Both the position numbers and the translations under genes were made by a program. This document shows positions 33,131 through 61,200 of a stretch of DNA of 64,000 nt, piece after piece. The DNA comes from Watersipora subatra. Taxonomy: Eukaryota; Bryozoa; Gymnolaemata; Cheilostomatida; Watersiporidae. The DNA is taken from the NCBI RefSeq assembly GCF_963576615.1, contig NC_088714.1, positions 27,090,558 to 27,154,557 on the forward strand, in the 5' to 3' direction. A model generated the notes under the pieces. That model did not search any database. It worked only from the letters and a program-made list of their open reading frames with translations, and was not told where the DNA came from. Positions within the stretch are counted from its first letter, which is position 1. Every line of letters begins with the position of its first letter.

Positions 33131-33167
33131 GATTTTGTTGCTTTTGTCGCTTTTACCTTTTACTGAC

Positions 33168-34685
33168 TTATCTGTTTTTCCAGTCTTGATACGCTTTAGT
33201 CAATGTGTTGTTTAATGTGTCAGATTCATGAACTAGAAAGTCGATGAATTCTTGGAGTGGTGGAAACTTGCTCAATTTCTTCTCCAGTTTTGTGGCCTTT
33301 GCTGTCCATCTGTGAGCAATATGTAATGGAAGTTTTCGTATCAGCCGCTTGTTTACAGATTCAGAACCAAGGTTCAAATCACTATCACATTCTGAACAAA
33401 CTTCAAGAAAGTCAATGAAGTCTTCTAACTGTTCGCCGTCATTTGCTTCAATTTTTTGCCAGCTGAGTAACTTTTCCTCCATGGCTTCCGCCACTATTTC
33501 TGGTTTGCCATATTTGGTGTCCAGTTTCTTCCAGGCAAGCATCCATGCACTTTCTGTTTTTCTATAGCTGAGGCCCTCTATTTTTTGCCAGGCCTTGCCT
33601 GTAACATATTGCTGCAGTTTGAGCCATTTTTTGCCTGGTGTACATGAACTGAAATCAAAGGTTTCGAAAAAGGAGGCCTTCCACTGCTGATACTTAAGTG
33701 TCTCACCCTTAAATATGGGTGGTTCATCAGGACGCTGGCGAACCGTGTTGATTGCTTCAGCAAGAGCAACAGGATCAAAGACTGTAGTAGGGGTACTAGA
33801 AATCGTCATAGGAGAACTATCTGGGGAAGCTCTTGGAAGGCGCAGTGGTGTGATCACCTCATTGGCAGGCCGTTGTGATGTTTGTCGGAATAACTCATTT
33901 GAGTCTTTTAGCTGTGTTTGTCCTGAATTTAACTTATTGGTGACAGGAGGGCGCAACAATGACTCATTGTTATCTTCCAATTTTTCTGCTATTGCTTGTG
34001 CGTAAATCTGCTCACGTTGGCGCTCAGCTTCTAACCCTGCTTTTAATTTAGCTTGTGCTATCAGACTTTTATTTCTTTGAACTTGTGTCTGAAGTTGGAG
34101 GCTTTCCTCCTCAAGTTGTTGAGATTTTATCTCGGCTTGAAGCTGGGCTTGTTTAGTTGCAGCAGCAGCTTTTGCCTCGGCCTGCATGATTTTGAGTGAC
34201 TGAGAAAGTCTGCTCGAGCCTGATTTACTAGACCTGGATTGTCTAGAGGAAAGAAAGGATGAATTTTTGGATTTTATGCTTTCTATGTCTGGCTCAGCGT
34301 GCTTGGTTCTTGTTACCAACTTATTCATACGAATTTCTAACTGGTCGATAACCTTCCTGTTATCAGCAAGCACGCGATCTATTTCTACAATGTCTTCCTT
34401 GTCAGGTTGTAAGTCGCTTTCATGAGCTTCTTTGTATGCACTATGCAGTTTTGTGATATTAACTGCACCTAATGTGATTTCTCCATGCATGCTGTTAAGC
34501 TGTTCATAGGAGAGTTCAATAGAGTTATCTCGCAAGTCATTTAATGTAGCTTTGTGACTTACACTGAGATTTTCAATAGTTGCTTGTAACTCAGACTTAA
34601 TTGACTGTATTTTTAGTCTTGGTGAAAACCTCCTACTGGTAGATTCTTCACTGTGAACAGAAGCGAGTTCTTCGCTATCAGACAT
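33168..34685 (-). CDS. gag: BEL/Pao Gag
   Basis: 505 codons. The first third is charged and Ser-rich. Residues about 165-245 are Ala/Gln/Glu/Lys-rich and predicted coiled coil. Residues about 310-450 contain PxFKGETLKYQQWKASFF and KWLKLQQYVTGKAWQKI, the pattern of the DUF1759 Gag domain of Pao-type elements. Gag assembles the particle that packages the element's RNA. The zinc knuckles usual at the Gag end are encoded in the pol frame, which argues that Gag-Pol is made by frameshifting, or that the knuckles are delivered only with Pol. It ends in AGA-TAA-G. Confidence 0.92.
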   Translation of the reverse strand: MSDSEELASVHSEESTSRRFSPRLKIQSIKSELQATIENLSVSHKATLNDLRDNSIELSYEQLNSMHGEITLGAVNITKLHSAYKEAHESDLQPDKEDIVEIDRVLADNRKVIDQLEIRMNKLVTRTKHAEPDIESIKSKNSSFLSSRQSRSSKSGSSRLSQSLKIMQAEAKAAAATKQAQLQAEIKSQQLEEESLQLQTQVQRNKSLIAQAKLKAGLEAERQREQIYAQAIAEKLEDNNESLLRPPVTNKLNSGQTQLKDSNELFRQTSQRPANEVITPLRLPRASPDSSPMTISSTPTTVFDPVALAEAINTVRQRPDEPPIFKGETLKYQQWKASFFETFDFSSCTPGKKWLKLQQYVTGKAWQKIEGLSYRKTESAWMLAWKKLDTKYGKPEIVAEAMEEKLLSWQKIEANDGEQLEDFIDFLEVCSECDSDLNLGSESVNKRLIRKLPLHIAHRWTAKATKLEKKLSKFPPLQEFIDFLVHESDTLNNTLTKAYQDWKNR

Positions 34686-40009: not shown

Positions 40010-41136
40010 TTCTAATAAACTAACCAAGTACGTACTTTTAAAATCAACTCATAGAAAGCGTGAATTTTTAAGATTGAGAAGCGAATATAACACATTTGAA
40101 GGAAAACTGAATGCAGGTAGACACTAGCTATCTCCATGAACTTGGAACATTTCTCACAATTTCTGCAATCAGGAATCCTGTGAATTTGAACTAGCCCTAT
40201 CATTAGCTTCTGGATAGTTTACAAATCTCTACTAATATGTTAAGGGAAAAACAATAGAAGTTATGTAATTACAAGACACTTTTCCATAATGAAGGCAAAT
40301 TGTCCCTTTCATTTCTTACTCGCTAACAGATAAGTGTCAAATCTAGACATTAGTCTAAGAACAAAGCCACATCAAAAGAAATTCCCCATAGAAAGTTGTG
40401 TCAGTAGGAGAACAAAGACGCGACGGAGACCAGAGGCAGACAACTCAAGATATCAACTCAACTTCTCGTCTGCCGATGTATTCATACACTGTCTAGCTGG
40501 TTACCAGCTGGAGAGTGTACCACTATCATAATTTAAATCTAGCTAGTTCATTTCAAATATTTGTTGTGATATTTGTAACATTTGGTTTGTGGTCGAAGGA
40601 TAATTTCTACAAAAAGTGTATTGATTTTTAGTCAATGTTAAGCTTTGTTTGCCATAAATTAAGGGAAGAATTATCTTATCTTGTCAGTAGAATATGCAGC
40701 GATAGAGTTGCGAATTAAAGGTTTGAATTTAAGGTCTTGTTGAGAGATAACTTTGTACTGTTTTATTTCTACTTGCAAACAGTGTAATAAAAGGCATATT
40801 TTGGTTAAAGAGAGAACTGCAATATTGACCATGAGACATGTATGGCTCAGGCTATCTCTTTAAGATGGAATAAGATGTAGTGTATGCTTTGCTGACTGCA
40901 AGGTTGTGTGTGTGTTTTAAAAACATTGTCACACAAACTACTATGTTTCTGTGATTTTGGCTGGACATGTCTGAGCCTAGTGGCAAGGAAGCCTCAACAA
41001 CTGGAGACATGCCCAGTTGAAGCGAGCAATTTACAGTTGGATGCCACTGCAGCCATCTAGGCCGGCACTTCTGGGAATTGACCAACAAGCTGCTGTTCAG
41101 ATGTCCTAGAATCCAGACAACTAGGTTACAGTTGCT
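40010..41136. repeat. outer left arm of the large inverted duplication
   Basis: Matches 57190-58245 in inverse orientation, roughly 80-85% by eye, including the stretch around 'ctagccctatcattagctt' and the 'gagacagacaactc'-like block. A SINE copy lies at its inner end in both arms. Confidence 0.8.
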
Positions 41137-41140: not shown

Positions 41141-42419
41141 TATTTACTATAATAAGAACTATAATAATATATTTACTATAATCATGTTTAAGTAAAGCAA
41201 TCTCTCGAATCTAAATTTCTTGTTCCAACGACCTATAATTTTATAGAGAGGTGTAAACTTTTTCGAGCTGGGTTTGAAAAAATCTCAGCTCTGTTCGTAC
41301 TTAAAAAGCAATAGCCTAGAAAGGAGTAATGTCCATGATGAGGTATTTCTAATATAACAGCAAGTGGTAAAGGTTTCAAACACACAGCCACGAGTACCAG
41401 AATCAGATTATTGGTAACCTCAAAGTTTTAAACTTTATTTTAGCTCAATTTAAGATTTCAAGATTTTTCATGATTTGTGTCCTCCTTTTTTAAATGACGT
41501 TACAGGTTTTTATTAAAGTTACAGGTTTTCGCTCAATCCAACCCACATGGTGTAAACAAATTGCATACAACCACTACAGATTATTTTAAAGATATCCGTG
41601 CTAGCTGCTTTAACAATCTTCCTCTTAATATCAGTTCTCTTAGCAGAAAAAGGTATTTTAAACACTATATGTCGTACTATATATTCGATTTTAATAGCTA
41701 ATTGTTGCCCTGTTTTATGTTGTTGTTTTATTATTGTTGTATGGCATAGTTTGAAAACATTTTTATTTGAAATGAAATTATTGCTAATAAAATAACATCC
41801 ATGTAAAGTGAAAAAGTGCTTAAAGAAGTAAACACGTTATTACAAACTTTTTGAAAAAATTAATAGAGGTTGATGGAGATTTTCAAATTATTGTTTGTAA
41901 ATGGCCCGTAAAATCTTTTTCTTCTAAAATTAGTAGTTAGCCTATTGTCTTGAAGAACTTTTAAGTTTTTTGTGCCAAATTTTTGAGATTAAATTTTTTA
42001 ATGTGGCAAACATTTTTGTCAGAAATATGTTTACTGACACAAACTAAGCAAACCAGATAATGACAGTGGGCATCCTTAAACTGTATGACTCTCAGTAAAA
42101 TGATCGAAGCAGCGAGTGAAGGCCAGGTACTAGAACTTTTGAGCAGCAAACGAAAATGGTATAAACAACTTCCAAGCTCAAATTATTTTATTGCATCATG
42201 TCACAATTGAAAAGCAATTCACTAATTTATGCATTATTGTATGTAAAGCAATAAACATAAAAATAATAATATAATAATATAAAAATTAGTTTAATAAAAC
42301 TTGCAAACAAATCTTGTTCACAATATTTCTTAAAACTTTTGGCACATTTTAGTAAGCTTGTCTTTATAAACTCTATAAACAAAAACATATTGATAAATAC
42401 ATGAAAATATTTAGTTGCT
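41141..42419. other. intergenic stretch between left arms
   Basis: No gene supported. A short frame at about 41598-41660 with a hydrophobic run ending at a GTATTT has no ATG and was not called. No clear match to the corresponding part of the right arm was seen. Confidence 0.4.
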
Positions 42420-42460
42420 GTTAACATGTAACGGTGAACAAACTCTCTATAGAGATTGGT

Positions 42461-42476
42461 GGCCTCAAGAAAGGCC
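42461..42476 (-). terminator. histone-type 3' stem-loop after the copy A gene
   Basis: On the minus strand: AAAAC, then GGCCTT-TCTT-GAGGCC, then ACCA. It is a six-pair stem (last pair T-G) with a four-base loop, the size and flanks of the replication-dependent histone mRNA end signal. It lies 63 bases after the stop codon. A purine run 'agagag' follows about 12 bases after ACCA, where U7 snRNA pairs in histone genes. No AATAAA is seen between the stop and the loop. Confidence 0.65.
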
Positions 42477-42539
42477 GTTTTGGGTCATTTGACCAATTAT
42501 AGAACAAGGAAACTTAATGAAAGGCGTAGACAGCGCTTG

Positions 42540-43019
42540 TCATTCGAGAGGAAGAGCTAAAGGACTCTCCAACCCATCTCCAGGTCTCAGTCTATTGCCT
42601 GTTTTAGCTGGAGTAAGAAATTCATCTACTTTCATATCCCTAGCGCAGGCATCGGCTCTGTGCCCTGAGAGGCTGTTCTGTTTGCGTTCAATGTACTCTA
42701 TGTACATGCATCTAACACTCTCTACTGTCGCTCTCTTCAAATTGATTCTGTAGTCAGCCATAACTTGTTTGTGCCTCCTTGCCCTTTGACCTCTCTCATC
42801 CAACCTTTTTAGTAGAGTGTTTAACTTAGCAACCTTCTTAGTTGCTACAGCTAATTGTAAGCTGCACTTTGTCCTCGGGGTGTAAAGCTTTTTTCTGCAG
42901 CAGCTGTTCCGATTTGGTGTAGAACCGTTGTTCATTCTGTTTCCATTCCTGGCAGTTCTCACGCTTTTCATGTTATCTGTAGGAGTTGTATCCATCTTTA
43001 GAAGAGGTGAGTTAGACAT
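42540..43019 (-). CDS. uncharacterised basic helical protein with CDK-type sites, copy A
   Basis: Intronless frame of 159 residues, 154 of which equal copy B at 54434-54913. Family not recognised. Residues 1-50 are polar with Ser/Thr-Pro sites. Residues about 52-120 are a Lys/Arg/Leu-rich, probably helical or coiled-coil stretch (KKVAKLNTLLKRLDERGQ). The tail is mixed and ends PLALPLE. TPNR at 34-37 and TPAKT at 136-140 fit the full CDK consensus (S/T-P-x-K/R). No signal peptide or membrane segment. The start follows a TATA box by about 50 bases; an open extension upstream runs through the TATA box and is not believed. With its histone-like 3' end it may be a cell-cycle-expressed nuclear protein, but that is inference. 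Confidence 0.65.
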   Translation of the reverse strand: MSNSPLLKMDTTPTDNMKSVRTARNGNRMNNGSTPNRNSCCRKKLYTPRTKCSLQLAVATKKVAKLNTLLKRLDERGQRARRHKQVMADYRINLKRATVESVRCMYIEYIERKQNSLSGHRADACARDMKVDEFLTPAKTGNRLRPGDGLESPLALPLE

Positions 43020-43067
43020 GGCTGTAGTAGTTAGTGTAAATGTGACTATAGGATGGGTGGCCTCCAA

Positions 43068-43119
43068 ATTTATAGGTGCTCATTTAAGATGCTCATAAGA
43101 AGAGCTGTGACATGATTGG
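43068..43119 (-). promoter_or_regulatory. TATA and CCAAT boxes of copy A
   Basis: Minus-strand TATAAAT at 43068-43074, 49 bases before the ATG, and CCAAT at 43115-43119, 40 bases further upstream. Both are conserved in copy B. Confidence 0.55.
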
Positions 43120-43150
43120 CTAATAGTATTATGGCTAATTAGCTTACACC

Positions 43151-43985
43151 TATTTGATTGGATAATCTCATAGAAAGACAAGCACCACTATTTCAAGGTA
43201 ACGCAAAGAGTTGTTGATAGGGTCTAGTCACAAAGTTTTAATCTTGTCAAATGCCAAATTGACTGATCTCTCAGAAGACAATGCATACTCACATCAGAGC
43301 AAAAAGAATTCATGCGTTATTTCTTGTTTTGCAATATTTTCTATTATATTCGGCTCCCAAAATATTGAGTTTATTTACATAAGCTTTCTCCTATTTGCAT
43401 CGTATATATATAGATTTTTTGAACTATAGCAAGATAGAAGTCCTATCAATCTGTCAGCAGCATTAGTTTGTATAATAATAGTAGATATGGAAAGAAGAGA
43501 AACCTTCAACAGTAGCTACTGATTCCATTAACACACTGCATCAAGCTGTTCAAAATGCTAGTCAGATTTCATTTTATTATTTGATTTTCCTTTCCATCAA
43601 ATGGTCATTATTAAAGTATACATAACACTACATATAGTGAAGTAACACCAATTAGCACATTTTCCGAACGTTTCTCGTCACCTAAGCTGTTATAAACTGC
43701 GTGAAAGTGGGCAACTCATGTCATAATCTACCGGATAATTTACTAATCTCTAGTAATATTTGCAGAAAAGAACAATACAGGAGTTATCATTGTAGGATAA
43801 TTTACTACTAAGAAACTATGAGTGCCTTTTTGTTTTGGTAGTAGATATGTGTCAGGGATAGTTAGGATTCATTCTATATGACAATATCAAAATAAGTCTT
43901 CAAGTAGCATGCGTAGGTAGTCAAAGTAGGCCAAAACTGAAACTAACAAATACGTGTCACATCTAGTCATCACTGCTGTTATATA
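43151..43985. other. intergenic stretch with a direct duplicate
   Basis: No gene supported. About 43690-43900 matches about 48830-49040 in the same orientation ('gcgtgaaagt', 'ggataatttactaatct', 'gtgcctttttgtttgg'-like blocks), a diverged direct duplication. The motif 'gtaggataatttact' recurs. Confidence 0.45.
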
Positions 43986-43995
43986 ACACTAGTAA

Positions 43996-44045
43996 ATATA
44001 TTCTTGTCCAAAAACTAGCGCAACCGGTACTGGACAAGAATATAT
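43996..44045. repeat. hairpin, 15 bp perfect arms
   Basis: 'atatattcttgtcca' and its inverse at 44031-44045, 20-base loop. First of five hairpins within 800 bases. Confidence 0.75.
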
Positions 44046-44150
44046 AGCAAATAAGTCAAAAGGGTATTTTAGTTTACAATTTGGGAGAATAGTTTAACAG
44101 TAGTAAGTTAACGGTAAAATACTAACCTAACCATTTTAACTTGAGTTAAC

Positions 44151-44183
44151 TTCAAATCTATTTAACGGTAAAATAGATTTGAA
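44151..44183. repeat. hairpin, 13 bp perfect arms
   Basis: 'ttcaaatctattt' (44151-44163) and its inverse (44171-44183) around a 7-base loop. Confidence 0.7.
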
Positions 44184-44358
44184 TGTACATGTATAACATA
44201 AATGAATTATTAATTAAATGTATTAATTAGCATTTAGAAAACATTTAGGAGAAACTTCAAAAAATCTAAAATCTTATTAGCAATATTGCTATCCATTTTC
44301 ACAAATAAACCATTTGGTTAGGTAAAATGTCAAGGGGTTTTCAGGTTTATCAAACCAA

Positions 44359-44416
44359 CCAATGCATTATCATTATTTTGATTGGTATACCAGTCAAAAT
44401 AATGATAATGCATTGG
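44359..44416. repeat. 58 bp loopless palindrome
   Basis: Two 29-base arms, one mismatch, no spacer; centre 'ggtatacc'-like. It could extrude as a cruciform or give a short hairpin RNA. Confidence 0.85.
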
Positions 44417-44429
44417 TCATTTGATCATT

Positions 44430-44491
44430 TGATCATGCTTGACCTCTTTGAAAAAACCTATAAGTTTTTTCAAAGAGGTCAAGCATGATCA
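44430..44491. repeat. 62 bp palindrome with 2-base spacer
   Basis: Two 30-base arms with one mismatch, starting 'tgatcatgcttgacctc'. It lies 13 bases after the palindrome at 44359-44416. Confidence 0.85.
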
Positions 44492-44744
44492 AAGGTGAAA
44501 GCCAAACCTACAGTAAAGGAAGCTTTTTTTCAAAATACTTTTATTTTTTTATTTTGTGACCAATTTCTGTTACCCAAGGCAAAACTAATTAGCTGTTGGA
44601 TTCTGAATGGCATTTATTGGATTAGCATTAATCTCGGTAAAGACTGTTAGCATTAATCCATAAAGCTGCTAATCCTGTTAATCCAATAGGATGTCAATAC
44701 ATGTCAAATCCTTTTGGAATGTCAAACCTTCAGGCATACAAAAG

Positions 44745-44769
44745 GTAATAAGAGATAATCTCTTATTAC
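44745..44769. repeat. hairpin, 11 bp perfect arms
   Basis: 'gtaataagaga', loop 'taa', then the exact inverse. Confidence 0.7.
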
Positions 44770-44930
44770 AATAATCGTCTAATTATATAGTGATATTTTC
44801 TAAATTTAGCCAAATTCCATTCAAGCTGGTTGTCAAGATGCACTAAATATACTCATCTAGTCTTTTGGTCATCATACCATCATAGGTCATCAGAGGTCAT
44901 CATCACTAGTTCTCTAGCTGCTCAGTCAAA

Positions 44931-45400
44931 GGTGAACTTGCACAAAACCTTATGTAGATTTGAGTAAAAAGTGTCAGTATGTTTTATCATTTGCGATTGT
45001 TTTTGATGTTTGAGGACTGACTGCCAGGATATTTCAAGATTGAACTCGTCAAAACTTGATCGTGTTTAAAATGCTTAATAGAAAACTATGTTTGAAATTA
45101 TGTCACTAGTTAATATCGCCGCTATAATTGATATCACTGATATCGTTGCTATAGTTGATATCAGCTATTGCGTTTAAGTTACAGCATTATGCGTCTCTAT
45201 TCTGTTGGTCTCTTTCCAAATATAAACATAATAATCACACTTTCTCCTAATCTGAGCATTTGAACCGTAACCAAGTTTTATCGATTTTAATCTTGAAACT
45301 TACTGGCAGTCAGATCGCCTCAAACATAAAAACAATCACATATGTTAGATAAATAGTGATACTTTCTGATAAAATATACTAAAATTTTGTGCAAGCTCAG
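44931..45400. mobile_element. M1-family MITE, copy 4
   Basis: Best-preserved copy: starts 'gaacttgcacaaaacctta', ends 'aaattttgtgcaagctca', with inverse internal halves carrying 'tttgcgattgtttttgatg' and 'aaaacttgatcgtg' motifs. Confidence 0.7.
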
Positions 45401-46120
45401 CTTTAGCAAGGTGAAACTAAGAGAAACTATAAGAACATAAGAACAAGCGTGAAGTCTGGCCAATTTTATTCAATTAGTACTTATCATGTTCAAATAATTG
45501 ACACGCTACAAGTAAATAGTTTTAAAAAAGAGTTCACAAACACCTTTTTCAACTCATAAATAGTTTTCCATATATGTGGGAGAAGCTATTTATAAAAGCT
45601 ACAAATGTATAATCATTTACTGCAGTACAATATAGCTCTTGTTTGCAACACGAACAGAAAAAAATGACTCTGGTATGTTTGTCAAAATTTAAAATAAATG
45701 TAGTAAACTGCAATGCAACCTAGTGTAAGATACCAGCTAGAGTTCTACAGAAAATAGAAATTTGTTTTGTAGAAAGTGGTAAAAGGAGGGTTTTTGTTGA
45801 AAACAGCAAATGTCTGCTAGCATTTGACTCCAATATACTGTAGTAGCTACCATTCATTATGCCAGCATTATGCTTTTTAGGCGCTTAGTTATTTGCCAAA
45901 ACAATATAATGCTAACACTATTACAGCAGGTAAAAAGTCTATGAATGAAGCTCAGACTACAAACAAAATTCTACAGAAGGAACATGAGTAGTAACTAAAT
46001 TGAAATATCAGCCCAAACAGGAGCTACCACAACAGCTAAACAATTGTTAATTCAGTCAAACTAGTATATTTGAATGAAAATGTCATACACCTTCCTACAC
46101 ATACCATGCTATGATATGAA
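45401..46120. other. intergenic stretch
   Basis: No gene or repeat that I can support. Confidence 0.4.
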
Positions 46121-46421
46121 GTGCCATTTGTAAAATTTTGTGATATCCACAATATAAAAACTTTTTTAGTATATAAGTTCACATGTTTAATATGTGAAAA
46201 TTCATGTTTAGTATGCTAACTTACATATTTAGTATGCCAACTTACATGTTTAGTATGTGAAAATTCGTGTTTAGTATGTCAGTTCACATGTTTTATATGG
46301 CAAGATTCATGTTTAGTATGCTAATTTTCATGTTTAGTATGTGAAGATATACTAATCTTGTGAAGATCTATACTAATCTACTATATTTTGTGAAGATATC
46401 ACAAAATTTTACAAATGGCAC
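46121..46421. mobile_element. inverted-repeat element holding a ~21 bp satellite
   Basis: Perfect 27-base inverted termini at 46121-46147 and 46395-46421. The inside is made of about eight variants of a ~21 bp unit built on 'catgtttagtatg', in two alternating types. Confidence 0.75.
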
Positions 46422-46588
46422 TCCATACTATGAAAAGAAAATTCAAAATTATCTGTAATCTTTTAAATGCATTGAACAGTTTAGTAAAGAACAAATAATG
46501 CTGCGTGGATTAAAGCTAACAAATACTTTGACAGCACCAAGTTCTGTAAGAGTAGATGACTTCTACACATACTCTAGAAGGATCCTCA

Positions 46589-47473
46589 TTAAAGGTTGAC
46601 TTGCAACAAAATTCACATTACAGTTATTTGATATGAAAAGATTCACCATGTCTTACTCTGCTGTGTTGTAGGTGCCAAATATGTGGAAATGTGATTACAA
46701 ACTTTTAAAAGATAAAAAACGGTCAGTTAATCGCAGCCACACGAGACCGCCGTAGTTTGGATTAGTTTTCTAAAACGGCTCAAATGTGACGTAGCTGTGA
46801 GAGATGGTTTCTGTTTACACTTTCATGCAACCTTATTCGTCGACATATTTTCACAATTATACTTCACGCATTCAATAAAATCATGACTATTGTCCTTACG
46901 CGTCTGTTTTATCGTCATCGTAATGCTGTCACTTTTAGCAGTGATATCCTATAACTTACCGTAAAATTTCGTTTAATTTTTTAGTCTTAGCTTGAAGGAG
47001 TACATATCATTGTCTGATAATCATGACGAGCCTGTTGGTCACTTGTGATAATCAAAAAATGCTGCAGAAATTATTTGCTAAGTATTAGGTCACATGATCA
47101 GATCACGACTTGCCGATTAGACCAAACCGAAACAAAACTGTAAAGTAGCGAACATCTATACTTGATACGGGGTCTTCGGTAAAACCCGAAGTGTTTGTCA
47201 TAAACTAGTGCTACGATAAGTTTTATATTGAGCTTTTCATTGGCCTTTCAATTCACGTGAGAACATCACGTGACAAGACAATAACCAAATTTCATGACTA
47301 CGCCAGAGAAATAAAAAGATTCGAATTTATGGCGGCTTTTCGTTTTTGAGCTTTTAAGAGCTTGTATTCACATTTCCACATATGTGGCACCTACAACACA
47401 ACAGAGTAAGACATGGTGAATCTTTTGATACTAAATAACTGTAATGTGAATTTTGTTGCAATTCAACCTTTAA
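46589..47473. mobile_element. ~885 bp element with ~110 bp inverted termini
   Basis: Left arm from 'attaaaggttgacttgc' to about 46700 and right arm from about 47366 to 'gcaattcaacctttaa' are near-exact inverses. The inside is unlike the neighbourhood, richer in GC, with 'cacgtg' sites and short palindromes, and has no protein frame. Non-autonomous DNA transposon of unassigned superfamily. Confidence 0.7.
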
Positions 47474-47804
47474 AGATACAACCAAGAGTCCTGTGTGGTC
47501 TTTTACAATGCTTGAAATATTTTTAGATTCACTCCTTTGAGATATATAAGTAGTACAATTTTCAAAATGAACAAATATAGGAATTCATTTTAATGATAGG
47601 ATGATGACAATTGTATAATCCGTTTAGAGCTAAATCAATATATCTATTTGTGATTAGCTCTAACTGCTTTTGGTTATCTGAACAATTGATATTTTAAATT
47701 AAATTTGACATCTACTAGAGTAACATTAAATTAACAGCTTAAAGGATTAACTCTACCAGTTTTAATGGATTATTGATTAACTTAGTAAGATTAACAATAA
47801 TCCT

Positions 47805-47900
47805 ATAGCTGACAGCAAAGATCTTATAGTTGACAGCAGTAATCTTATAGCTGACAGCAGTGGTCTCATAGATGACAGCAGTGATCTTATAGTTGACCAG
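47805..47900. repeat. 21 bp tandem repeat
   Basis: About 4.5 copies of a unit like 'atcttatagctgacagcagt'. Confidence 0.7.
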
Positions 47901-47980
47901 CATTCTGGTGGTTTAAAATTCTTACAACACAAAACCATAAAATTTGTCCATATTTTTGAAGAATAAAATTATTAAAATTT

Positions 47981-48514
47981 AACTTGCACAAATTTTTAAT
48001 AGATTTTATTGAAAAGTTTTTAGCAGCTGCGGTTTTTTGATGTTTGAGGTGATCTGACTGCCGGGATGATTTGACGCTAAAATCGACGAAAGTTTATCGC
48101 GGTTAAAATGCTGGGATCAAGTAAAAGTGTGATATTGCAATTGTTTTTGATGTTTGAGGTCATCTGACTGCCAGGATGTTCCAACATTAAAATCAACAAA
48201 ACTTGATCGTAGTTAAAATGCTCAAATCAAACGAAAGCGCGATTATGATGTCTATAGTAGCAAAGAGACTGACAGAAGAAAAACACTTAATGATGCAACT
48301 TAAACGCAATAGCTGATATCAACTTTAGCAACTAATGATGTCATTTCGCGACGTTCATTTTTTTTTAAGCGTTTTAATCGTGATCAAGTTTTGTTGATTA
48401 TAACTTTGCAGCATAATGACAGTCAAACCACCCAAATATAAAAAAAACAATCGCAACTGATAGAACAATTCTGATATTTTCAAATAAAATCTACTAAAAT
48501 TCATGTGCAAGTTC
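47981..48514. mobile_element. M1-family MITE, copy 5, partly duplicated inside
   Basis: Starts 'aacttgcacaaatttt', ends 'tcatgtgcaagttcattt'. The left half contains the 'tttttgatgtttgaggt' block twice (about 48030 and 48138), showing an internal duplication. Confidence 0.65.
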
Positions 48515-49925
48515 ATTTTTAAATTGAATGTTGATTAAGAAGGATTTTCACAGTAAAATGCTACAAGTCCACGATAAGCACTATAAATTTACCTTACACA
48601 ATTCTACCACGTAAGTTTGTATATATCAAATAGTGTGCAGCTTATTATGCTTTTTTGTGTGATACCGCAATGTGAATGCATTATTTTTTTCAAACTCATA
48701 GCAATTTTTAACATGCTAACATGCTGAGAGAGAGTATTATTATCCTTAATGTAGAACAATACACAGTCTATGCAATGTTTGTCTCTACTAGCCAGTAATG
48801 TGTGAACATGGAAATATGACCCATTAGCTACCGCGTGAATGCGTGAAAGTAGTCATCCAGTGCCATTATCTGATGGATGATTTACTAATCTGTACTAACA
48901 TTTAAAGAGAGAAGCAATGCAGGTGTGATAATTGTAAGAACATTTACTGTAAGAAAGCTAAAGCTGCCTCCTTGTTTGGAAAGAGATTTGTGCCAGTCCT
49001 AGATATAATTTCTAGTGTGTAACAATATGTTTAGTGCATAGAGAGACAGTTGCTGTCTCAAAACTGAAGAACAGACAAGTGGTAAACATGTCAAGAAACC
49101 TGTTTGTGTTCTCATCTGAGCAAATACTTATAGAATAGTCAATGCAAAATGTAGCTTAAATTCATGTATGTTTAAATTCATGTCACCAGATCATCAAAGG
49201 TGTGAAATAGGATAACCTGTAAGAACTCAAATTTGCAAAAAGACATTTATTTAAAATTTCCAGTGTGAACCATAAAATACAACTGGTTCATGACTGGGTT
49301 ACTTATGAATATCTGCTCATGTTTCAAAAGAAAAATCATGAATTAAAAATAAGTAACAAAATATCTTTTTTCTTTTATGATAATATGCGCCATATTCAGC
49401 TTTGGTTCTATGAATTAAAAACGTTGAATAAAAAAAAGTTGAGTGTGTTGTCATCTGTCAAGTTGTTTTTAGCTGACAAAAATTATTACTTAAATGCTAT
49501 GACTAACATAACATCAGAAAATTCAAATAAGCAATAAATTCCCCTATAATTTATGAAAAGATTTTTACTAACATTCTAATAAAGAGAAACAATAAATGTA
49601 AAAAAGTAATGTTACAACTTTGCCTTCCTTGCATGATGTCGCGCGTCATTCTTAGCTTTGGCTTTAGGGATCAAACATCACAAATGCAAGGGAATGTTTT
49701 ACGACCTACTGAATGTGTTATTTTGTCATCAGAGTTTTCTAGAGTTGACAAACAGTCACCATACTACAGATCATTGACTGAAGGTATTGATTTAACTGCA
49801 GTAGTAGTGCAACAAAGGCAAAAGGCAATAAAATTTAAAACCTAGAGTTGGTCAACAATTTGAAGTCTCGCATGCTTATACCTCAACAACTTCATTTTAT
49901 AAAACTCTCATTAGAACTAACTCAT
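48515..49925. other. intergenic stretch
   Basis: Holds the second copy (about 48830-49040) of the direct duplication with 43690-43900. Two 78-90 codon frames at 49265-49537 and 49609-49845 match nothing I know and were not called. Confidence 0.4.
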
Positions 49926-49929
49926 TTTT

Positions 49930-50478
49930 TTATTAACATCAGGAACATTAGTTACTAGATAACTTTATGCCTAGATAGAGTTCAGTATTTACATACTTCT
50001 TACTGTTTAATTTAAATATGATTTAGCTAAATTTAGATAATCACTCCCTAATTAAGTGATTAGTGTAATCAAGGATTATCTTTAGTTCCCTAAAGGTTGA
50101 CATTCTAATAAGCTCTGACACTCATTAGAGTATCATTAGATTAGCAGATCAACAGATTAATGGATTAAAGATTAACCATTATCAAGGAAGATAAATTCAT
50201 AGGAGAACATTAGCGGCAGCCCAGTAGCTGTCAAAAATGAACCTTTTTAGATGCTGCTGCAAAATAAAGCATCACACTTTAGAGATGACTTGTACAAACT
50301 TGCTTAAATCCTCCTAGACTCCTAGAAGAGTACATCATTTGCGTGTGTTATTATCCCACGAACTTGAATAGAACTTTCTGGCTGCCAATTTAGTAGTAAA
50401 CTCTATGTAATACAATAGCAATAGATTCTCTCTCGGTCATGTCTGCCTGACTCGCTAGAGTATAATTCATAAAATCTC
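49930..50478. repeat. inner left arm of the inverted duplication
   Basis: Inverse match to about 52033-52580, roughly 85% by eye. Shared blocks include 'tgtttaatttaaatatgatttag', 'ttccctaaaggttgacattct' and 'gcagcagcatctaaaaagg' (inverse). The mirror axis is near 51255. Confidence 0.75.
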
Positions 50479-52032
50479 CTTTCTAGCATTAGTAATATCT
50501 TTTCTGTTCATAAATCGGTCAGTTTGGTAATGAATTTATAACAAAATTATAAACAAAAGATAAATATAGATTAGCATTGATTTCTGCATCTTTAATTTTA
50601 TACAAGTATAAAACAATGTGTTACAGTATTTCTTTTATTGTACACTGTATACTCCTTTGAAGTACTATCAGATCCTTCTAGCATATACCATATACTACAA
50701 TAACATCTGTGACTGTCTGTCTGGTCATCAAAATCCATGATTAGATGTTGGGGAAAAACATTTTTTCCTACGAGATTCAAAGTCATCACACTGATCTTGG
50801 CTGACCAACACTCCAATCAACCGCCTATTGGCGGTTTGATTTTTTGACTACTTTTGATTAGCGTTATTTTCAAATAATTATACACATAGCTATTACACTC
50901 AAAGATCTCTCACAACACACTATACTGCCAGGGTAGTATTTGTAATAAAGAGTCAACTAATAAAATACCATATTATTTTGAAGCATTTAAAAACATTTAT
51001 AGCCATTTATGGCATTATTTTTTATGCTTAATTTTATTTTTGCCCTGTTCACTCATTTTTTTTCAAAGATAGGTTATATCATCATAGTGGTAGCATTACT
51101 TTGTATCAGTTTGTAAGACCAGTACAGAGACCACTTTATGAACTTTTTTAAACAATTGATTGCTTGCCTTAGACAGAACTACAGTAAAGTATAATATTGG
51201 CTGAAATGTGTGACAATAAACATAGAAGTTTGTTTATTGCACTCTCTATAATTAGGCTATCAAATATATACATTGTATATATAAAATATCAAAATATATC
51301 AAATATATATATTAAATCATTTTTAGTGTATTTTGATTGTTTGCATTTATTAGCGCAAAGGAATTCTTTCAAATGAAAAATAAAAACTGAATTCCTGCCT
51401 TATCTGTCACTCGTGCCTGTTTCAGTTTTGACACAGTAGCCGCCTGCATGTATAATGAAAGATTAACTTTGATGTTGTTATACCCCAGAAGTCATACCTA
51501 AAGCTGACACAGATCTGTTACCAAAACAAGAAGACACTTTTAGTCTCACATGGATGAATTATCTAGTAACTTTAACCACTGTATCGTGTCCTTCTTTACA
51601 TATCAGTAGACATTGGCAAACTATCCAGTAAATAATAACAATGGTTGTCCACTTTCACCCATTTTTCTCTATCGAAGATGACGGACAGATTTTGAACGTG
51701 TGCTAACTGATATAATTTCTATATGATTTTACTGCTACTTGATTACGTATAATTGAGTCATGACTGTGTGCTGTAGTATGAACAGAGAGTCAAATAATAA
51801 AATGAAATCTTGCCAATATCTTAAACAGCTTGGCACAATGTGTTCACCGAATCACTATCAAGGAAAAGGTGTTACATCTTTCAGTTGCCAAGTGTACTAC
51901 ACAAGCCACAACTGCTAACAGAGGATGTGACTCAATTACATTAATCTCTTTCTTTAATGATACTATAACGAATGTCAAATCTTAACAGAATGCCAACTTT
52001 TTGGGAACCAAAGATAATCCTTAATTACACTA
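50479..52032. other. spacer around the axis of the inverted duplication
   Basis: No gene supported. A 26-base palindrome ('aatcaaccgcct' and its near inverse) lies at about 50814-50840; a TATA/AAATAT tract at about 51260-51320 sits at the axis. Confidence 0.45.
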
Positions 52033-52580
52033 ATCTACGAATTATACTCTAGTGAGTCAGTCAGACATGACCCGACCCGGTGAGCATTTATTGCTGCTGT
52101 ATCACATTTATTTTACTATTAAATTGACAGTCAGAAAGTCCTGCTTAAAGCCATAGAATAATAAACAAGCAAATTATATATTCTTTTAGTAGTCTAGGAA
52201 GATTTCACCAAGTTTTTAAAGGTCATCTTTAAATTGTGATGCTTCATCTTGCAGCAGCATCTAAAAAGGTTCATATTTGACAGCTAGTGGGCTGCCGCTA
52301 ACCTTCTCTTAGGCATTTATAATCCGTGATAATGGTTAATATTTAATCCATTAATCTGTTAATAATTATGTTGATCTGTTAATCTGACGATACTCTAACG
52401 AATGTCAAATGTTATTAGAATGTCAACCTTTAGGGAACTAAAAATAATCCTTGATTACAATAATCACTTAATTATGGAGTGATCATCTAAATTTAGCTAA
52501 ATCATATTTATATTAAACAGTAAGAAGTATGTGAACACTGAACTCTATTTAAGCATAAAGCTATCCAGTAACTAATGTTT
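52033..52580. repeat. inner right arm of the inverted duplication
   Basis: Inverse partner of 49930-50478. It ends 20 bases before the CTA microsatellite. Confidence 0.75.
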
Positions 52581-52599
52581 CAGACTTTGTTCTAAACCT

Positions 52600-52600
<1 letters not shown>

Positions 52601-52687
<87 letters not shown>

Positions 52688-52790
52688 CACTACTACTACT
52701 AATATTGCTACTACTAATACTACTATTACTACTACTACTACTAATATTGCTACTACTAATACTATTAATACTACTACGAATACCACTACA
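52601..52790. repeat. (CTA)n microsatellite
   Basis: About 27 uninterrupted CTA units and then an interrupted part with CTAATA and TTGCTA variants. The long Val run in the reverse frame is an artefact of this repeat. Confidence 0.95.
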
Positions 52791-52813
52791 AAGAAACTAC
52801 CGATGTAATGCAA

Positions 52814-54299
52814 ACAGAATATAGCTCTGTAATTTATGTTACAAAGTTATAAGTAATTTTAAAGGAGATCATTTTTTTGTGTTTTAATTAATTAATAATA
52901 GTCTGTAATCCTTGATACTAGACAGTAGACAAATTTCAATAACTATGAGGCTAGTACATGTACTACTATTTACTAGTAGTACTACTAATAAGTATTAGTA
53001 CCACAATTTACTAGTACTGATAGTTACTAGTTACTGTAGTAGTACTATTTAGTATTTAGTAAGAATGCTATAAATACCTTAACAAATTATAAAATATTTT
53101 TGTGGTAATATCTCATTGAAGATGCAACGAGATACTAAAATAATAATTTACTTTCAATTAATTTCATGAACTGAATTGCCTTTTCACCACAGTTATATAT
53201 ATTTATGCAAACTCTACATTGCATCATTCAATTACAGTGACCTTTCCATATATCAGCAAGCAAGGAGACATTGGTACAAGATTTTTTAAAACTTTTTGTG
53301 AGTTGCTTTTCATTGTATGAAATTACCATTCTGCTTGTGTCAGTAATGACTGTCCTCAGAACAACCGTAAAACGCGGTGCACTTTTTGTGTCTAGTGTTG
53401 ATCTATAACTTATCCTCCGTACATATTATCTTAGCAAACTCTATTTATAGAGATACAGGTTGATGAATAATCAAAATGGCTCATGTCAATGTATTGAAAG
53501 TGGCTATATCTTGTCTGACCAACAATGGTGTAAAGAAGCTAAAAAAGCTATGTTTGAAATGGTGGTGATTTGACGATTCGAAATCCCCCAATATTTGAAA
53601 CAAATTCCCTTGCTATAAGAACTCATTCACTGCATCCAAAATTTATACACGTTGTTTACTTGTTCTACTCTTAGTATCTATGATAATTTTACAGTCAGGT
53701 TTCAAAAATTTTTCCAAAAGTCCGGTTTAAAACCGCTTCGCTTTTGGAAAATCTTTCAACTTGCAGATTCAAGCAAAATACAGAGCAATAAGACTGCTAG
53801 ATTCTGAATGCTACAGCTGATTAACTTAGGTAAACATAGTAACTGTCAACTTGGCCATGCAAGAATTAAACATTAGCAACAATACTTCATCAAAATATTG
53901 GGTATTCACACCCCATAAACTGACATATTTCTCGATGAATCCTAACTGAAGAACTTTAACAATGCTGAGACATGAAACAGTTTTGTTTTAGTTAATTTAA
54001 TGGCTACAGAAATACAGTTCCGCTAGCAATATATTTCTATTGTTTATCAACTCTTTAACTTTTAATGCTCTATGTATCACTGCTGCAATCAGGAATACTG
54101 CTGTTTTATAAATTATACAGTTTTCAGCTGTAGAAAATCTTTAATGGTGAGGAAATGCTGGATGTTTGATGATGTTTTTAAAAACAGCGCAATTTCAAGT
54201 TTTGTAGGTGATGCTAGCCTATTATAAATACGTAATCTCATTGAAATTAACTTAGGACCCTGATAGTTGTCTCTCTAGAGTCTAGCAGATGTTTATCCA
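52814..54299. other. intergenic stretch
   Basis: No gene supported. About 52940-53060 is rich in 'actagta' variants, probably decayed microsatellite. Confidence 0.4.
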
Positions 54300-54338
54300 A
54301 TCAAAACGAAGTAAGCTAATTAGCCATAATTCTATTAG

Positions 54339-54385
54339 CCAATCGTGTAACAGCTATTCTTATGAGCATCTTTTCGCCTATAAAT
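54339..54385 (+). promoter_or_regulatory. CCAAT and TATA boxes of copy B
   Basis: CCAAT at 54339-54343 and TATAAAT at 54379-54385, 49 bases before the ATG. The same boxes occur in copy A. Confidence 0.55.
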
Positions 54386-54433
54386 TTGGAGGCCACCCAT
54401 CCAATAGTCACATTTACTCTAACTACCACAGCC

Positions 54434-54913
54434 ATGTCTAACTCACCTCTTCTAAAGATGGATACAACTCCTACAGATAACGTGGAAAGCGTGAGAACTG
54501 CCAGGAATGGAAACGGAATGAACAACGGTTCTACACCAGCCCGGAACAGCTGCTGCAGAAAAAAGCTCTACACCCCGAGGACAAAGTGCAGCCTACAATT
54601 AGCTGTAGCAACTAAGAAGGTTGCTAAGTTAAACACTCTACTAAAAAGGTTGGATGAGAGAGGTCAAAGGGCAAGGAGGCACAAACATGTTATGGCTGAC
54701 TACAGAATCAATTTGAAGAGAGCGACAGTAGAGAGTGTTAGATGCATGTACATAGAGTACATTGAACGCAAACAGAACAGCCTCTCAGGGCACAGAGCTG
54801 ATGCCTGCGCTAGGGATATGAAAGTAGATGAATTTCTTACTCCAGCTAAAACAGGCAATAGACTGAGACCTGGAGATGGGTTGGAGAGTCCTTTAGCTCT
54901 TCCTCTCGAATGA
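54434..54913 (+). CDS. uncharacterised basic helical protein with CDK-type sites, copy B
   Basis: Intronless frame of 159 residues, the divergent twin of 42540-43019 11 kb away. Five residues differ (positions 17, 18, 28, 36 and 84 or close to these), four of them in the first 40; at least two silent changes were seen, so the pair is recent or homogenised. Not recognised as any known family; I looked for histone folds, protamine runs and geminin-type coiled coils and saw none. TPAR at 34-37 and TPAKT at 136-140 are full CDK-type sites. The Lys/Arg/Leu helix spans about 52-120. The start was chosen because it follows the TATA box at a normal distance in both copies. Confidence 0.68.
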   Translation: MSNSPLLKMDTTPTDNVESVRTARNGNGMNNGSTPARNSCCRKKLYTPRTKCSLQLAVATKKVAKLNTLLKRLDERGQRARRHKHVMADYRINLKRATVESVRCMYIEYIERKQNSLSGHRADACARDMKVDEFLTPAKTGNRLRPGDGLESPLALPLE

Positions 54914-54976
54914 CAAGCACTGTCTACGCCTTCCATAAAGTTTCCTTGTTCTATAATTGGTCGAATGACCCAAAAC

Positions 54977-54992
54977 GGCCTTTCTCGAGGCC
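54977..54992 (+). terminator. histone-type 3' stem-loop after the copy B gene
   Basis: AAAAC, then GGCCTT-TCTC-GAGGCC, then ACCA, again 63 bases after the stop. It differs from copy A only in the last loop base (C for T). The canonical form is GGCYCT-TTTC-AGRGCC with the same flanks and the same total length. A purine run follows at about 55006-55011. Confidence 0.65.
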
Positions 54993-55035
54993 ACCAATCT
55001 CTATAGAGAGTTTGTTCACCATTACATGTTAACGG

Positions 55036-56021
55036 CAACAAAATAGTTTTACGTATTTTTAAGTGTATTCACATGTTAACGACAGACGGAGTTTTAACAT
55101 ACATATAGAATATTTTTGTGTTAATTGCATAAAAATGCAGGTGGCAGCACAATAACAGATGGTTAGTTATTTACCCATTCCACATATAATAAGTGCTTTT
55201 AAGTTTGCATTATTTACAGAGAAAAGCTGTAGTTAACAAAAAATTTCTCAAACGTGAATTTGAGCTCTTGTTTGGCTTTGCTTTTGGCTATGCCCAATAG
55301 CCGCATCACTCTCGTTGTCCACTGAAAAATTTCTTATGCGCTTCCTACGGTTCTGTAGTAGGAAGCGTATACTGGACCAGTTTTTTACTAGACCAGTTCT
55401 GCGGAACAAGTTGGATTTGTGGCAACGCTTGAGCTAAGCAATATCTAACAACCCAAACTAGTAGTTCTGGTAAACTACTGGTTGAATTTTAACTTCAGGA
55501 GAACCCCTCTGAAATCTGCTCATGGCAATAATGTAAAGATACTCTACCGGCCAATTTATACTCTTTGTTTGTAAATAACAGAAAAGAGAATTCCTTGCTG
55601 CAAAGAGCATTTTGTAGTTTGTAGGCAACAACATCCAGGTGAATGAATATTTTTAAAACTTGCTGTTATTGCTGTTTAATTGCTGTTTAATTGCTTAACG
55701 TACATGTTAAAACATTCGTAGCCATGTGGTCTAGAACACCTGACCTCCTGAGAAATGAACACCAAACTGAGGCCAGGTGTTCTAGACCTGTGCAGTCTAG
55801 GTTTTTCTGATGCAGACTTCTTGGCGGAGACAGCTTCAATTGATGCAGCTGATGATCCGTAGCCTTTCTGATTTATTTTCTTTATCTCTAGTATGAATGA
55901 TTCCTTTACATGATTCTTTAGGCTCCCATAGCCAAAATCTTATTGAAGAATCTCATGACGTACATCTGTCAAATACGTAAATGCAGCTTTTATCTGAAAA
56001 TTTTTTCTTCTACTTTTACTT
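55036..56021. other. intergenic stretch with hairpins
   Basis: No gene supported. Hairpins lie at about 55336-55372 (arms 'atgcgcttcctac' and near inverse) and 55728-55788 (15 bp perfect arms, 'ggtctagaacacctg'). Confidence 0.5.
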
Positions 56022-57189: not shown

Positions 57190-58245
57190 TGGATAAAGTC
57201 GGAACTTGTAACCTGCGCTAGAACATCTGGGCCAAAAAAGTCCTATTCCCCAAGAAATGGTGACCTTGGCCCTAGGTGACTGCAATGGCATTCATTCTTA
57301 AATTGCTTTTTGCACTGTCTCTAGTTGTCGAGGCTTCCTAGACACTGGGCTCAGATCTATTCAGACAAACTCACGGAAACATAGTTTGCGCTACACCTCT
57401 ATAAAAACACACACAACCTATGCTTGCAGTCAGCAAAGCATACGTCTTATTCGATCTTCGAGAGATAGCCTGAGCCATACAGGTGTCATGGTCGATATTG
57501 CAGTTCTGTCTTTAACTAAAAGATGTCTTTTATTACACGGCTTGCAAGGAGAGATAAACAGTACAAATTAATCTCTCAAAGAAACCTTGAATTCAAACAG
57601 CTATCTAGTAACTCTATTGCTGCATACTCTACTGACAAGATAAGATAATTCTTCCCTTAATTTATTGACAAACAGAACTTAACATTGATTGAAAATCAAT
57701 TGATTTTTTGCAAACATCACCTTTCGGCCACAAACCAAATGTTACAAATATCACAACAAGTATTTGAAATGCACTAGTTAGATTTAAATTATGATAGTTG
57801 TACACTCTCCAGCTTGTAGCCAGCTAGACAGTGTATGAATGCACAGGCAGACAAGAAGTTGTGTCGATATATTGAGTTGTCTGCCTCTGGTCTCCGTCTC
57901 GTCTTTGTTCTCCTACTGACAGCTTCCTAAGGTTAATTTCCTTTGATGTGGCTTTACTCTGAGACTAATGTCTAGATTTGACACTTATCTGTTAGCGAGT
58001 GAGAAATGAAAGGGACAATTTGCCTTCATTATGGAAAAGTGTCTTGTAATTACATAACTTCTATTGTTTTTCCCTTAACATATTAGTAGAGATTTGTAAA
58101 CTATCCAGAAGCTAATGATAGGGCTATTTCAAATTCACAGGATTCCTGATTGCAGAAATCGTGAGAAATGTTCCAAGTTCATGGAGATAGCTAGTGTCTA
58201 CCTGCATTCAGTTTTCCTTCAAATGTGTTATATTTGTTTCTTGCC
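57190..58245. repeat. outer right arm of the inverted duplication
   Basis: Inverse partner of 40010-41136. It includes a SINE copy in plus orientation at about 57205-57360, matching the one in the left arm. Confidence 0.8.
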
Positions 58246-61200
58246 TTTTAAAATGCATGCTTTTGCTGAGCCACATTTGGAAGTATACAGCTGATTCAGT
58301 AAACAATGACAGAAAATAAACTAATTTTGGTTAATAAATATATCTTTGTCAGTGTGTGTCTTAGCCCCATAAATGTCATGCGTGTTCACATTTCTTGTCC
58401 AAACTTCACTCACAAATGCTTCAAGGCTTCTACCAGGTCGCCAAAGTATTTGGTTTTAAAATTCCATCTATTTTCTCACAATCAGCATCTTAAACACTCA
58501 TCTGATTAAAACATTGAGAACTCCCTTACGCATGCATTAAAGACATCTGCCCTCTTTGAATGTGCTCATGAATTGCTGTCATAAAAACCGTTTAGCAGTT
58601 TGCATTAAAATCTACACACATGCTGCAGGCTATCTTATTGAAAATAAATGAATTGCTGGGCCTAATGCTAGTGAATTACTAAAATGTGTAACCCTTCTAT
58701 CACAAGCATACTGTCTATGTCTACATTTTAAATAATAAACTTGAATTATTTAGCTAACCTTTTGAATTATAAAACAATTTAAAATGTTAAGAGTTGAAGC
58801 TCATAAAAGAAGCAGTTACATTTCAACATTATTTCAAACCACATTTGGCTCCAGAAGGCTATTTGAAAATAGAACTTTTAAAATTTGAAACTATCGTTTG
58901 CCATGCAGTATATGAAATACTCAGGCAATGTATAAAGTGCACTGGGATTCTTGAGATTAGTCAAATAGAGAAACATATTTTAGCAGCTCACACCAAGGCC
59001 ATGTTTATTCAAAGTTTTATATAAAAAGTTGATTTAATACTACAAATTTAAACAAAGATAACAAGTTTTTACAAAAAATACTATTAAAACTTTTACCTAA
59101 ACTCTTTCCTTACTATGGGTACATAGTTCATAGGACTGTTTAGTGACAACTGGCAAAAGTACATCGGTATTCTTTTTGCACAAAAAACTTCAAGTCTGAA
59201 AAGTCCAACACGATTTGAGATTATCTTTTTTTCAGTTTCAATAAGCTAAAGCAGAAGTTGACTACATTTACTTTTTATTGTCTGCACAATAACAACAGAA
59301 ACCTTTTACAAAAATTTCTAAAGCAGATGTTGCTGATGATGGTAGCCATGACCAGAAGAAAAGCAGAAGAAACATCAGTTTTTGGCAACAAAATTTAGAT
59401 TTTGAAGACAATTGTCTCAAACATTAGCCAACCCTGTGAGCTGCAATTTTGATGCATCTATTTTACAAAAAACAAAACTTACCAAATGAAAGAGTTTTTA
59501 ACCAATGATGCCTCATTACTTTCTAAGATTAGTAGATAGTTTTGCTAAGTTTGTCTTTGTTTTATTTAAAACTGTCAAAGATAGAATTTCCACGTCGTTA
59601 TATCAAGAAAGTTGAAAGCCACTCATTAACAGAAGTTATGTGCCGATAATTTCCAATCATAATATTGCCAATAAAGTAATATATAATTTCCACCTACTTT
59701 ATAGTGTTTGAAGATGTTAACAGAGTAAAGCAGGTTTATACTTTCTTTAAAGAATGGTGCAAATTTATACTTTTATTCTTAGCTACATAATGACGTCCCT
59801 GCTGTGGGAACAAGTTGAGAATGGGCAGAAAACTTCTTTGTGTCATAGAAACAGTCTCTATTAAGTGTACTTGTAGCTGTGCGTATTCATTGTACAGAGG
59901 AAACAGCAGCATCTGTCTCGGCAAGTATTACATCTTTTCTAATAATGACTGGCTCGCGCTACATCACCGTGTGTCGGTGTTAATCATACAGCACTTCTGT
60001 GATCGTCTGTGATAACAATGTTTATGCTATCACAAAAATGCAAGCCTCCTCCGTGTTTACATCCGTAAATAGCCTTCGGCATAGCGCTTTCATTAAACAA
60101 TACTAGTTCCGCAACAACTGTCATGAAATAAATTCTAGATCAAGCGACCAGCGACAATTAATTCCCATTTCTGAAATAGTGCGCATTGCAAAGGCTGCCG
60201 TGGAAGATCGGTGAACTATTGGGACGGTTTGACAGCTGCCATCTTTTCAGACGAGTCAGCATTGCATTACGGTGCTCATAGTCAATGAGTAATTGCTGAG
60301 AGGACACACGACAATCGGCGATATAGTGTGAACCAGTTTTAACATCTCAGCTCGCCTGCATATGTAGATGAGACAGAGATACGCAGACAGTTAGTAATCG
60401 ACTTGAAATAAACTCGGTACAGAGAATAAACCTGTTCAAGACTTTGCGACTAGTCAGCTAGACAGACACTCTTTAAGTTGCACAAGAATTAAAAACATCA
60501 GCTACTGCTATACATATTCGAAAGATTAGATTAGCACACATATCCTTTTTGGAGAAAGAAAGGTATTTTAATAATAATGATAATAGAAATCAAATGCAAA
60601 GCTGACAGCATACAAACACTAAAATTGTGTGGTTTGTAAAACGGTCACTCGTTTTACATATCCAGTAATAGCAATGCTGTCATCAGACATTGCTAGATCA
60701 GCATTGCCACTATTGAATTTCTTGCTTCTACAACCCATGCGGTGGCCACTATTGCCCTAGGGGCTGTATAGCCACTCGTGGCAGAGACCTTCGTTAAGTT
60801 TCCATTGGGTGATAGTGTAGCGACACACTCCCATAATGCCATCTTGAAAATAGCTGTGCTGCTCTCGCTCGGTCGTGATCCAGCGACGCTGTGTGGAAGC
60901 GAAACACCCGCGTGATATGCCGTATTTGTGTCATGGAAACAGTCTAACAACCAATGAGAATGCCATCATAAGAGCATCCGTATCGCTCTCATTCTGTCGT
61001 GATTCAGTGTTGTGAAGCAGCATCTTGTGCTACATATAATAATTATTACAGGTTATTGATAATATTATTGTTGTATTAATTCATTTAGCAGTGACTTAAA
61101 AAAAATTAAAATTAGCACATACTCTCTGCAACATGGAAGTTTTGAGCTTTTTATGCGTTTGACTTGAGGCGCTGCACAACCACTGCTCTACTATACATGT

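Follow-up and report, generated by a model that had tools for sequence, protein, structure and literature searches.

Can an animal gene that encodes no histone carry the mRNA end of a replication-dependent (RD) histone gene? Published statements, as far as the excerpts at hand extend, hold that histone mRNAs alone carry this end in animals, and within the excerpted part of the openly licensed PMC literature no animal non-histone gene with a histone-type end was found. The question is raised by a locus of the cheilostome bryozoan Watersipora subatra, located in a stretch of DNA of 64,000 nucleotides that was analysed as a whole and is termed the window below. A preliminary description of this locus proposed twin genes that have the promoter and the 3' signal of a histone gene and encode an S-phase-regulated protein that is no histone. 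As far as DNA can show, the histone-type signal is found again with few exceptions, and no recognisable histone is encoded; the S-phase regulation remains a suggestion drawn from these signals.

Organization of the twin genes

The locus contains a divergent (head-to-head) pair of near-identical ORFs of 159 codons each, with 5 amino-acid differences between the copies (Table 1). Both ORFs are uninterrupted, as was claimed, and introns are absent from their coding regions; the term intronless refers here to the coding part and not to the UTRs. ORFs of this length arise by chance in 1 of 30 simulated 64-kb sequences. The ORF program places the start of copy B at an upstream ATG (54362), which sits upstream of the TATA box (54379) of the same copy, while in copy A a length difference of 5 nt puts the counterpart of this ATG in another frame. 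The CCAAT and TATA boxes announced for each gene are present: two upstream CCAAT boxes and a TATAAA motif at -55 could be positioned in both copies.

Table 1. Coordinates of the twin genes and of their putative control elements in the window.
Feature	Position	Strand	Basis
Copy A, complete unit reaching from the promoter beyond the stem-loop, 94% identity with copy B	42384-43165	minus	block alignment
Copy A, AGAGAG, possible histone downstream element	42443-42448	minus	read from sequence
Copy A, histone-type stem-loop GGCCTTTCTTGAGGCC, 6-bp stem, UCUU loop	42461-42476	minus	pattern scan; RF00032 29.9 bits over 42437-42481
Copy A, ORF, uninterrupted, with stop	42540-43019	minus	ORF list and copy alignment; no Pfam match
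Copy A, TATAAA at -55	43069-43074	minus	motif scan
Copy A, CCAAT at -100	43115-43119	minus	motif scan
Copy A, CCAAT at -142, near the upstream limit of the shared block	43157-43161	minus	motif scan and copy alignment
Copy B, whole unit	54293-55069	plus	block alignment
Copy B, CCAAT at -137	54297-54301	plus	motif scan
Copy B, CCAAT at -95	54339-54343	plus	motif scan
Copy B, TATAAA at -55	54379-54384	plus	motif scan
Copy B, third CCAAT, at -33		plus	motif scan
Copy B, ORF, uninterrupted, with stop	54434-54913	plus	ORF list and copy alignment; no Pfam match
Copy B, histone-type stem-loop GGCCTTTCTCGAGGCC, UCUC loop	54977-54992	plus	pattern scan; RF00032 30.9 bits over 54972-55016
Copy B, AGAGAG, possible histone downstream element	55005-55010	plus	read from sequence

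The histone-type stem-loop

In both copies the stem-loop starts exactly 63 nt past the stop codon and follows the pattern GGCCTTTCTYGAGGCC, preceded by AAAAC and followed by ACCAATCTCTATAGAGAG. The GG...CC stem of 6 bp, the UNUN loop, the A-rich 5' flank (AAAAC) and the ACC-type 3' flank (ACCAA) are present in both, and the claimed distance from the stop and AAAAC and ACCA flanks are confirmed. The two stem-loops differ solely at the fourth base of the loop, a base that is free in the UNUN consensus of the histone stem-loop. In replication-dependent mRNAs, the stem-loop is found within about 100 nt of the stop, and a purine-rich element downstream of it pairs with U7 snRNA. The description also stated that length, stem, flanks and position copy the histone 3' signal, which is borne out with two exceptions: the top stem pair of both stem-loops is U-G rather than U-A, and the AGAGAG that begins at the 13th nt past the stem in both copies is a weak, short purine element overlapping a predicted small second hairpin. 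The latter is not a strong objection, since excerpts of a study on bivalve histone genes report purine elements in some genes only and at shifted places (PMC6210712).

When 2 mismatches are allowed, the stem-loop pattern matches these two sites only in the window, as compared to a mean of 0.01 matches in shuffled sequences. A looser consensus returns one additional hairpin, on the plus strand at 295, which does not have the ACC flank. In 20 Mb of simulated sequence (one strand, like dinucleotide make-up), five stem-loops fit the loose consensus and none has AC directly after it.

The Rfam model of the histone 3' stem-loop, RF00032, aligns over its full length in both copies but with scores that stay below its curated gathering score of 34 bits. 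The E-values are 1.8e-6 (copy A) and 8.3e-7 (copy B) when the regions are scanned alone, and 1.7e-4 and 6.8e-5, respectively, when the whole window is scanned. Among the 31 rows that all families yield in the window at E ≤ 1, these two are the only ones of RF00032. Other rows, largely assigned to miRNA families at palindromes or simple repeats and also below cut-off, reach still lower E-values (down to 6e-8), so that the E-value of RF00032 is no proof by itself; furthermore, the two copies are homologous and their matches are therefore not independent evidence. Near-perfect palindromes with arms of 30 and 33 nt and no spacer are found at 44358-44417 and 44428-44493; these are probably short inverted-repeat elements, and the second draws sub-threshold miRNA-family matches. 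A scan with RF00032 had been proposed beforehand, a below-threshold score in both copies counting as refutation, and formally this is the result obtained. It is not taken as such because E-value, flanks and position agree, although it lowers the certainty of the assignment. What carries the assignment to the histone signal is that stem and loop, the two flanks, the strand and the spacing from the stop all agree with it.

The encoded protein

The protein is small and basic (18 kDa, pI 10.3, about 21% Lys+Arg, 9% D/E). No Pfam family is matched by either copy and no NCBIfam family by the protein (E limit 10; the filters used remove most matches above about 0.1). Solved structures (PDB) include no relative and no histone match, the single rows at E 1.4 and 0.96 being noise. 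A shared-word search of 5.8 billion proteins yields none at E ≤ 1 among 31 candidates, and the same collection queried with residues 38-145 yields none at E ≤ 10 among 8 candidates; as shared 5-residue words are required, fast-evolving orthologues would escape this search. Phages provide no match to the protein, and none of the 8 pattern matches in viral contigs or of the 63 in prokaryote genomes is confirmed as a relative, negatives that say little on animal orthologues because these collections cover phages, viruses and prokaryotes. The predicted model, built from two sequences and with a mean pLDDT of 49.6, displays a single helix (residues 49-115) between unstructured ends, a hint that the protein is perhaps one long helix without histone fold or winged helix. 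Neither the histone fold nor the winged helix of linker histones is recognised in Pfam or in this model (pLDDT about 50), in keeping with the statement that the protein is no histone.

Six of the eight prolines belong to S/T-P sites (shuffle P 8e-5). T34 (TPNR/TPAR) and T136 (TPAK) match the full CDK pattern, S/T-P-x-K/R, and KKLY at position 43 fits a cyclin-docking pattern. TPRTK at T47 does not fit S/T-P-x-K/R, and the CDK-type TPxK/R sites proposed for the protein are thus retained at T34 and T136 and dropped at T47. From these motifs, we infer that the protein may be a nuclear CDK substrate.

The best surviving of the alternatives, unlikely as it is, sees in the protein a fast-evolving relative of histones or sperm nuclear basic proteins, of the linker-histone or protamine-like line, in which the histone-type end would be inherited and not acquired. 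A pI of 10.3 in a histone-type unit is what such a relative would display, and linker histones also bear RD-type stem-loops according to excerpts of two studies (PMC5011920, PMC6210712). However, a family or a histone match is missing from the Pfam, NCBIfam and PDB searches within the limits given above, and the predicted long helix, although of low confidence, is not that of a histone. As to the protamine-like line, such proteins differ in composition from a chain with this Lys+Arg and D/E content and six S/TP sites.

No histone is recognised among the 10 ORFs in the window that reach 100 amino acids or more, 7 of which were scanned with Pfam in their listed form. Three related single ORFs of 178-187 amino acids, at 17766-18314 (minus), 22633-23169 (plus) and 26901-27464 (plus), form a small unnamed gene family; the latter two are 24% identical to the first, and above the Pfam cut-off the family has no match, the sole rows being weak ones to LURP-one-related and UBZ_FAAP20. 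At 2593-5260 (minus), exon pieces resemble a ubiquitin ligase of the UBR1/UBR2 type, which fits an intron-containing gene of a eukaryote. Of the three pieces, one passes the Pfam cut-off and two do not; the top solved match is named UBR2 (E 3.6e-19). An exon-like ORF at 15432-15641 (plus) has a sub-threshold DUF948 match and looks coiled-coil-like by eye.

Polyadenylation signals and annotation

Downstream of the copy A stop, the nearest ATTAAA is found at 244 nt and the nearest AATAAA at 347 nt, while copy B has neither in the 1 kb past its stop. The two signals of copy A would suit a dual-end gene, whose mRNA would end in the stem-loop during S phase and be polyadenylated at other times; H2A.X offers a published precedent (PMC7807067, in excerpt). 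We hold this to be quite improbable: copy B does not share the signals, and the twin-gene protein has no match in a protein set that includes W. subatra proteins. The presence of the latter is attested by the BEL/Pao-type ORF, 6 of whose best 120 matches (251 in all) are from this species. This ORF is the pol-like one of a BEL/Pao-type retrotransposon at 28793-34685 (minus), whose gag-like ORF is likewise uninterrupted, and it is 99% identical, over 87% of the query, to a W. subatra protein.

According to excerpts of the W. subatra genome note, the RNA-Seq libraries were of poly(A) RNA and the annotation was mainly made via transcript alignment (PMC12902671), which also counts against a polyadenylated form. 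A poly(A)-based annotation could miss a gene that ends in a stem-loop and has no known relative. The absence of the protein from the set fits a lack of poly(A) and is no proof of it, because annotators can miss any small orphan gene.

Divergence between the copies

The copies resemble each other over about 780 bp only, in a block that begins just upstream of the first CCAAT and stops about 65-77 nt beyond the stem-loop. In this block, 10 of 480 CDS sites are different, versus 25 of 286 in the rest (Fisher P 4e-5). Residues 37-159 have undergone 1 nonsynonymous and 3 synonymous changes (dN 0.0035, dS 0.039, dN/dS about 0.09). The N-terminal 36 residues carry the other 5 of the 6 nonsynonymous changes together with 1 synonymous change, with dN exceeding dS on these 6 changes only. 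Past the stop, the copies differ at positions 5, 19, 23, 49 and 72, the last being the free fourth base of the loop. The 34 following positions (73-106), which encompass the 3' arm of the stem, the cleavage region, AGAGAG and slightly beyond, display no difference, and 6 of the 38 aligned positions after 106 differ, all six changes being within 107-138.

As the synonymous sites are nearly unchanged too (overall dS about 0.04), the likeness of the copies is largely explicable by gene conversion or recent duplication. Together with flanks that do not align directly, this dS suggests a sharp-bordered duplication or gene conversion, as in histone genes. Inverted blocks of about 1 kb and 85% identity (40033-41061 and 57271-58285) flank the twin genes in mirror order, and weaker blocks in inverted order reach 64-70% identity. 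The 1-kb pair may be a repeat or a piece of an older inverted duplication. Three of the queried blocks (40033-41061, 43343-43943 and 44653-44824) have partial further matches in the window; as perhaps dispersed repeats, the blocks are not a neutral yardstick.

The unit might also be an inert remnant of a histone gene, with an exchanged coding part and now unexpressed or non-functional. The cluster of nonsynonymous changes in the first 36 residues and the failure of the protein, phage, viral-contig and prokaryote collections to provide a relative would agree with this. Nevertheless, both ORFs are open, the CDS has changed less than its surroundings, dN/dS is low over residues 37-159, on 4 changes only, and both copies keep promoter elements and stem-loop, which makes a remnant very improbable. 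Finally, a chance hairpin is extremely improbable despite the RF00032 scores below gathering and the lower E-values that other families reach on repeats in the same scan, as about 0.0002-0.0005 matches are expected when scaled to RF00032 alone and 783.7 Mb, and each hairpin follows an open ORF on the correct strand, at the correct position and with the correct flanks.

Proposed expression and function

The explanation that we consider likely, given the arrangement of the DNA, is a duplicated non-histone gene that uses the RD histone mRNA system. Its transcription, processing and regulation, as well as the role of its protein, are inferred. The unit would combine a TATA/CCAAT promoter and an intron-free coding region with a short 3' UTR, a stem-loop for SLBP and a possible U7-binding element; should the TATA box determine the start, the 5' UTR would be very short. 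The U7/SLBP machinery would cut the mRNA about 5 nt past the stem-loop, leaving it without poly(A). Translation would then take place in S phase, or draw on a maternal store, and the mRNA would decay together with histone mRNA. Because of the histone-type promoter and mRNA-end signals, the protein may be made only during DNA copying. Given a predicted long helix between disordered tails with many CDK-type S/T-P sites, it would most likely be nuclear and act in S phase, in chromatin assembly, replication or chromosome structure.

A broader reading is that the histone mRNA regulon of bryozoans has taken in a new protein that is no histone, that SLBP/U7 control extends beyond histones in at least one phylum, and that poly(A)-based annotation misses a hidden class of genes; we see the chances of this as evenly balanced. 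If confirmed, the case would contradict the published rule that reserves this end for histones in animals. If true, the twin genes would point to a candidate protein of S phase and demonstrate that such genes can escape annotation based on poly(A) RNA.

Comparison with known systems

According to excerpts of one study, histone genes are marked by core genes free of introns, by UTRs of small length, and by the presence of a stem-loop and a purine-rich element (PMC5011920). The twin genes resemble animal RD histone genes in their TATA and CCAAT boxes, uninterrupted coding part, short 3' UTR, 6-bp stem and 4-nt loop, ACCA flank, purine element and near-identical copies; they differ from them by encoding no recognisable histone, by the U-G top pair and by forming a single divergent pair. 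H2A.X, which has both ends, and Hydractinia H3.3.2, an RD variant at a single locus, likewise end in a stem-loop at a place apart from the main histone cluster (PMC5011920, in excerpt). Both encode histones, whereas the twin genes do not recognisably do so. On the protein side, the resemblance is with geminin, sororin and the like, small S/T-P-rich CDK substrates with a coiled coil: the twin protein is also small, S/T-P rich and predicted to have one helix, as are these disordered proteins, but family and PDB searches reveal no sequence relation to them, and their mRNAs are polyadenylated. The best reading of the locus is that of a known mechanism with a new kind of cargo, in which a unit of the RD-histone type would be built around a non-histone CDS.
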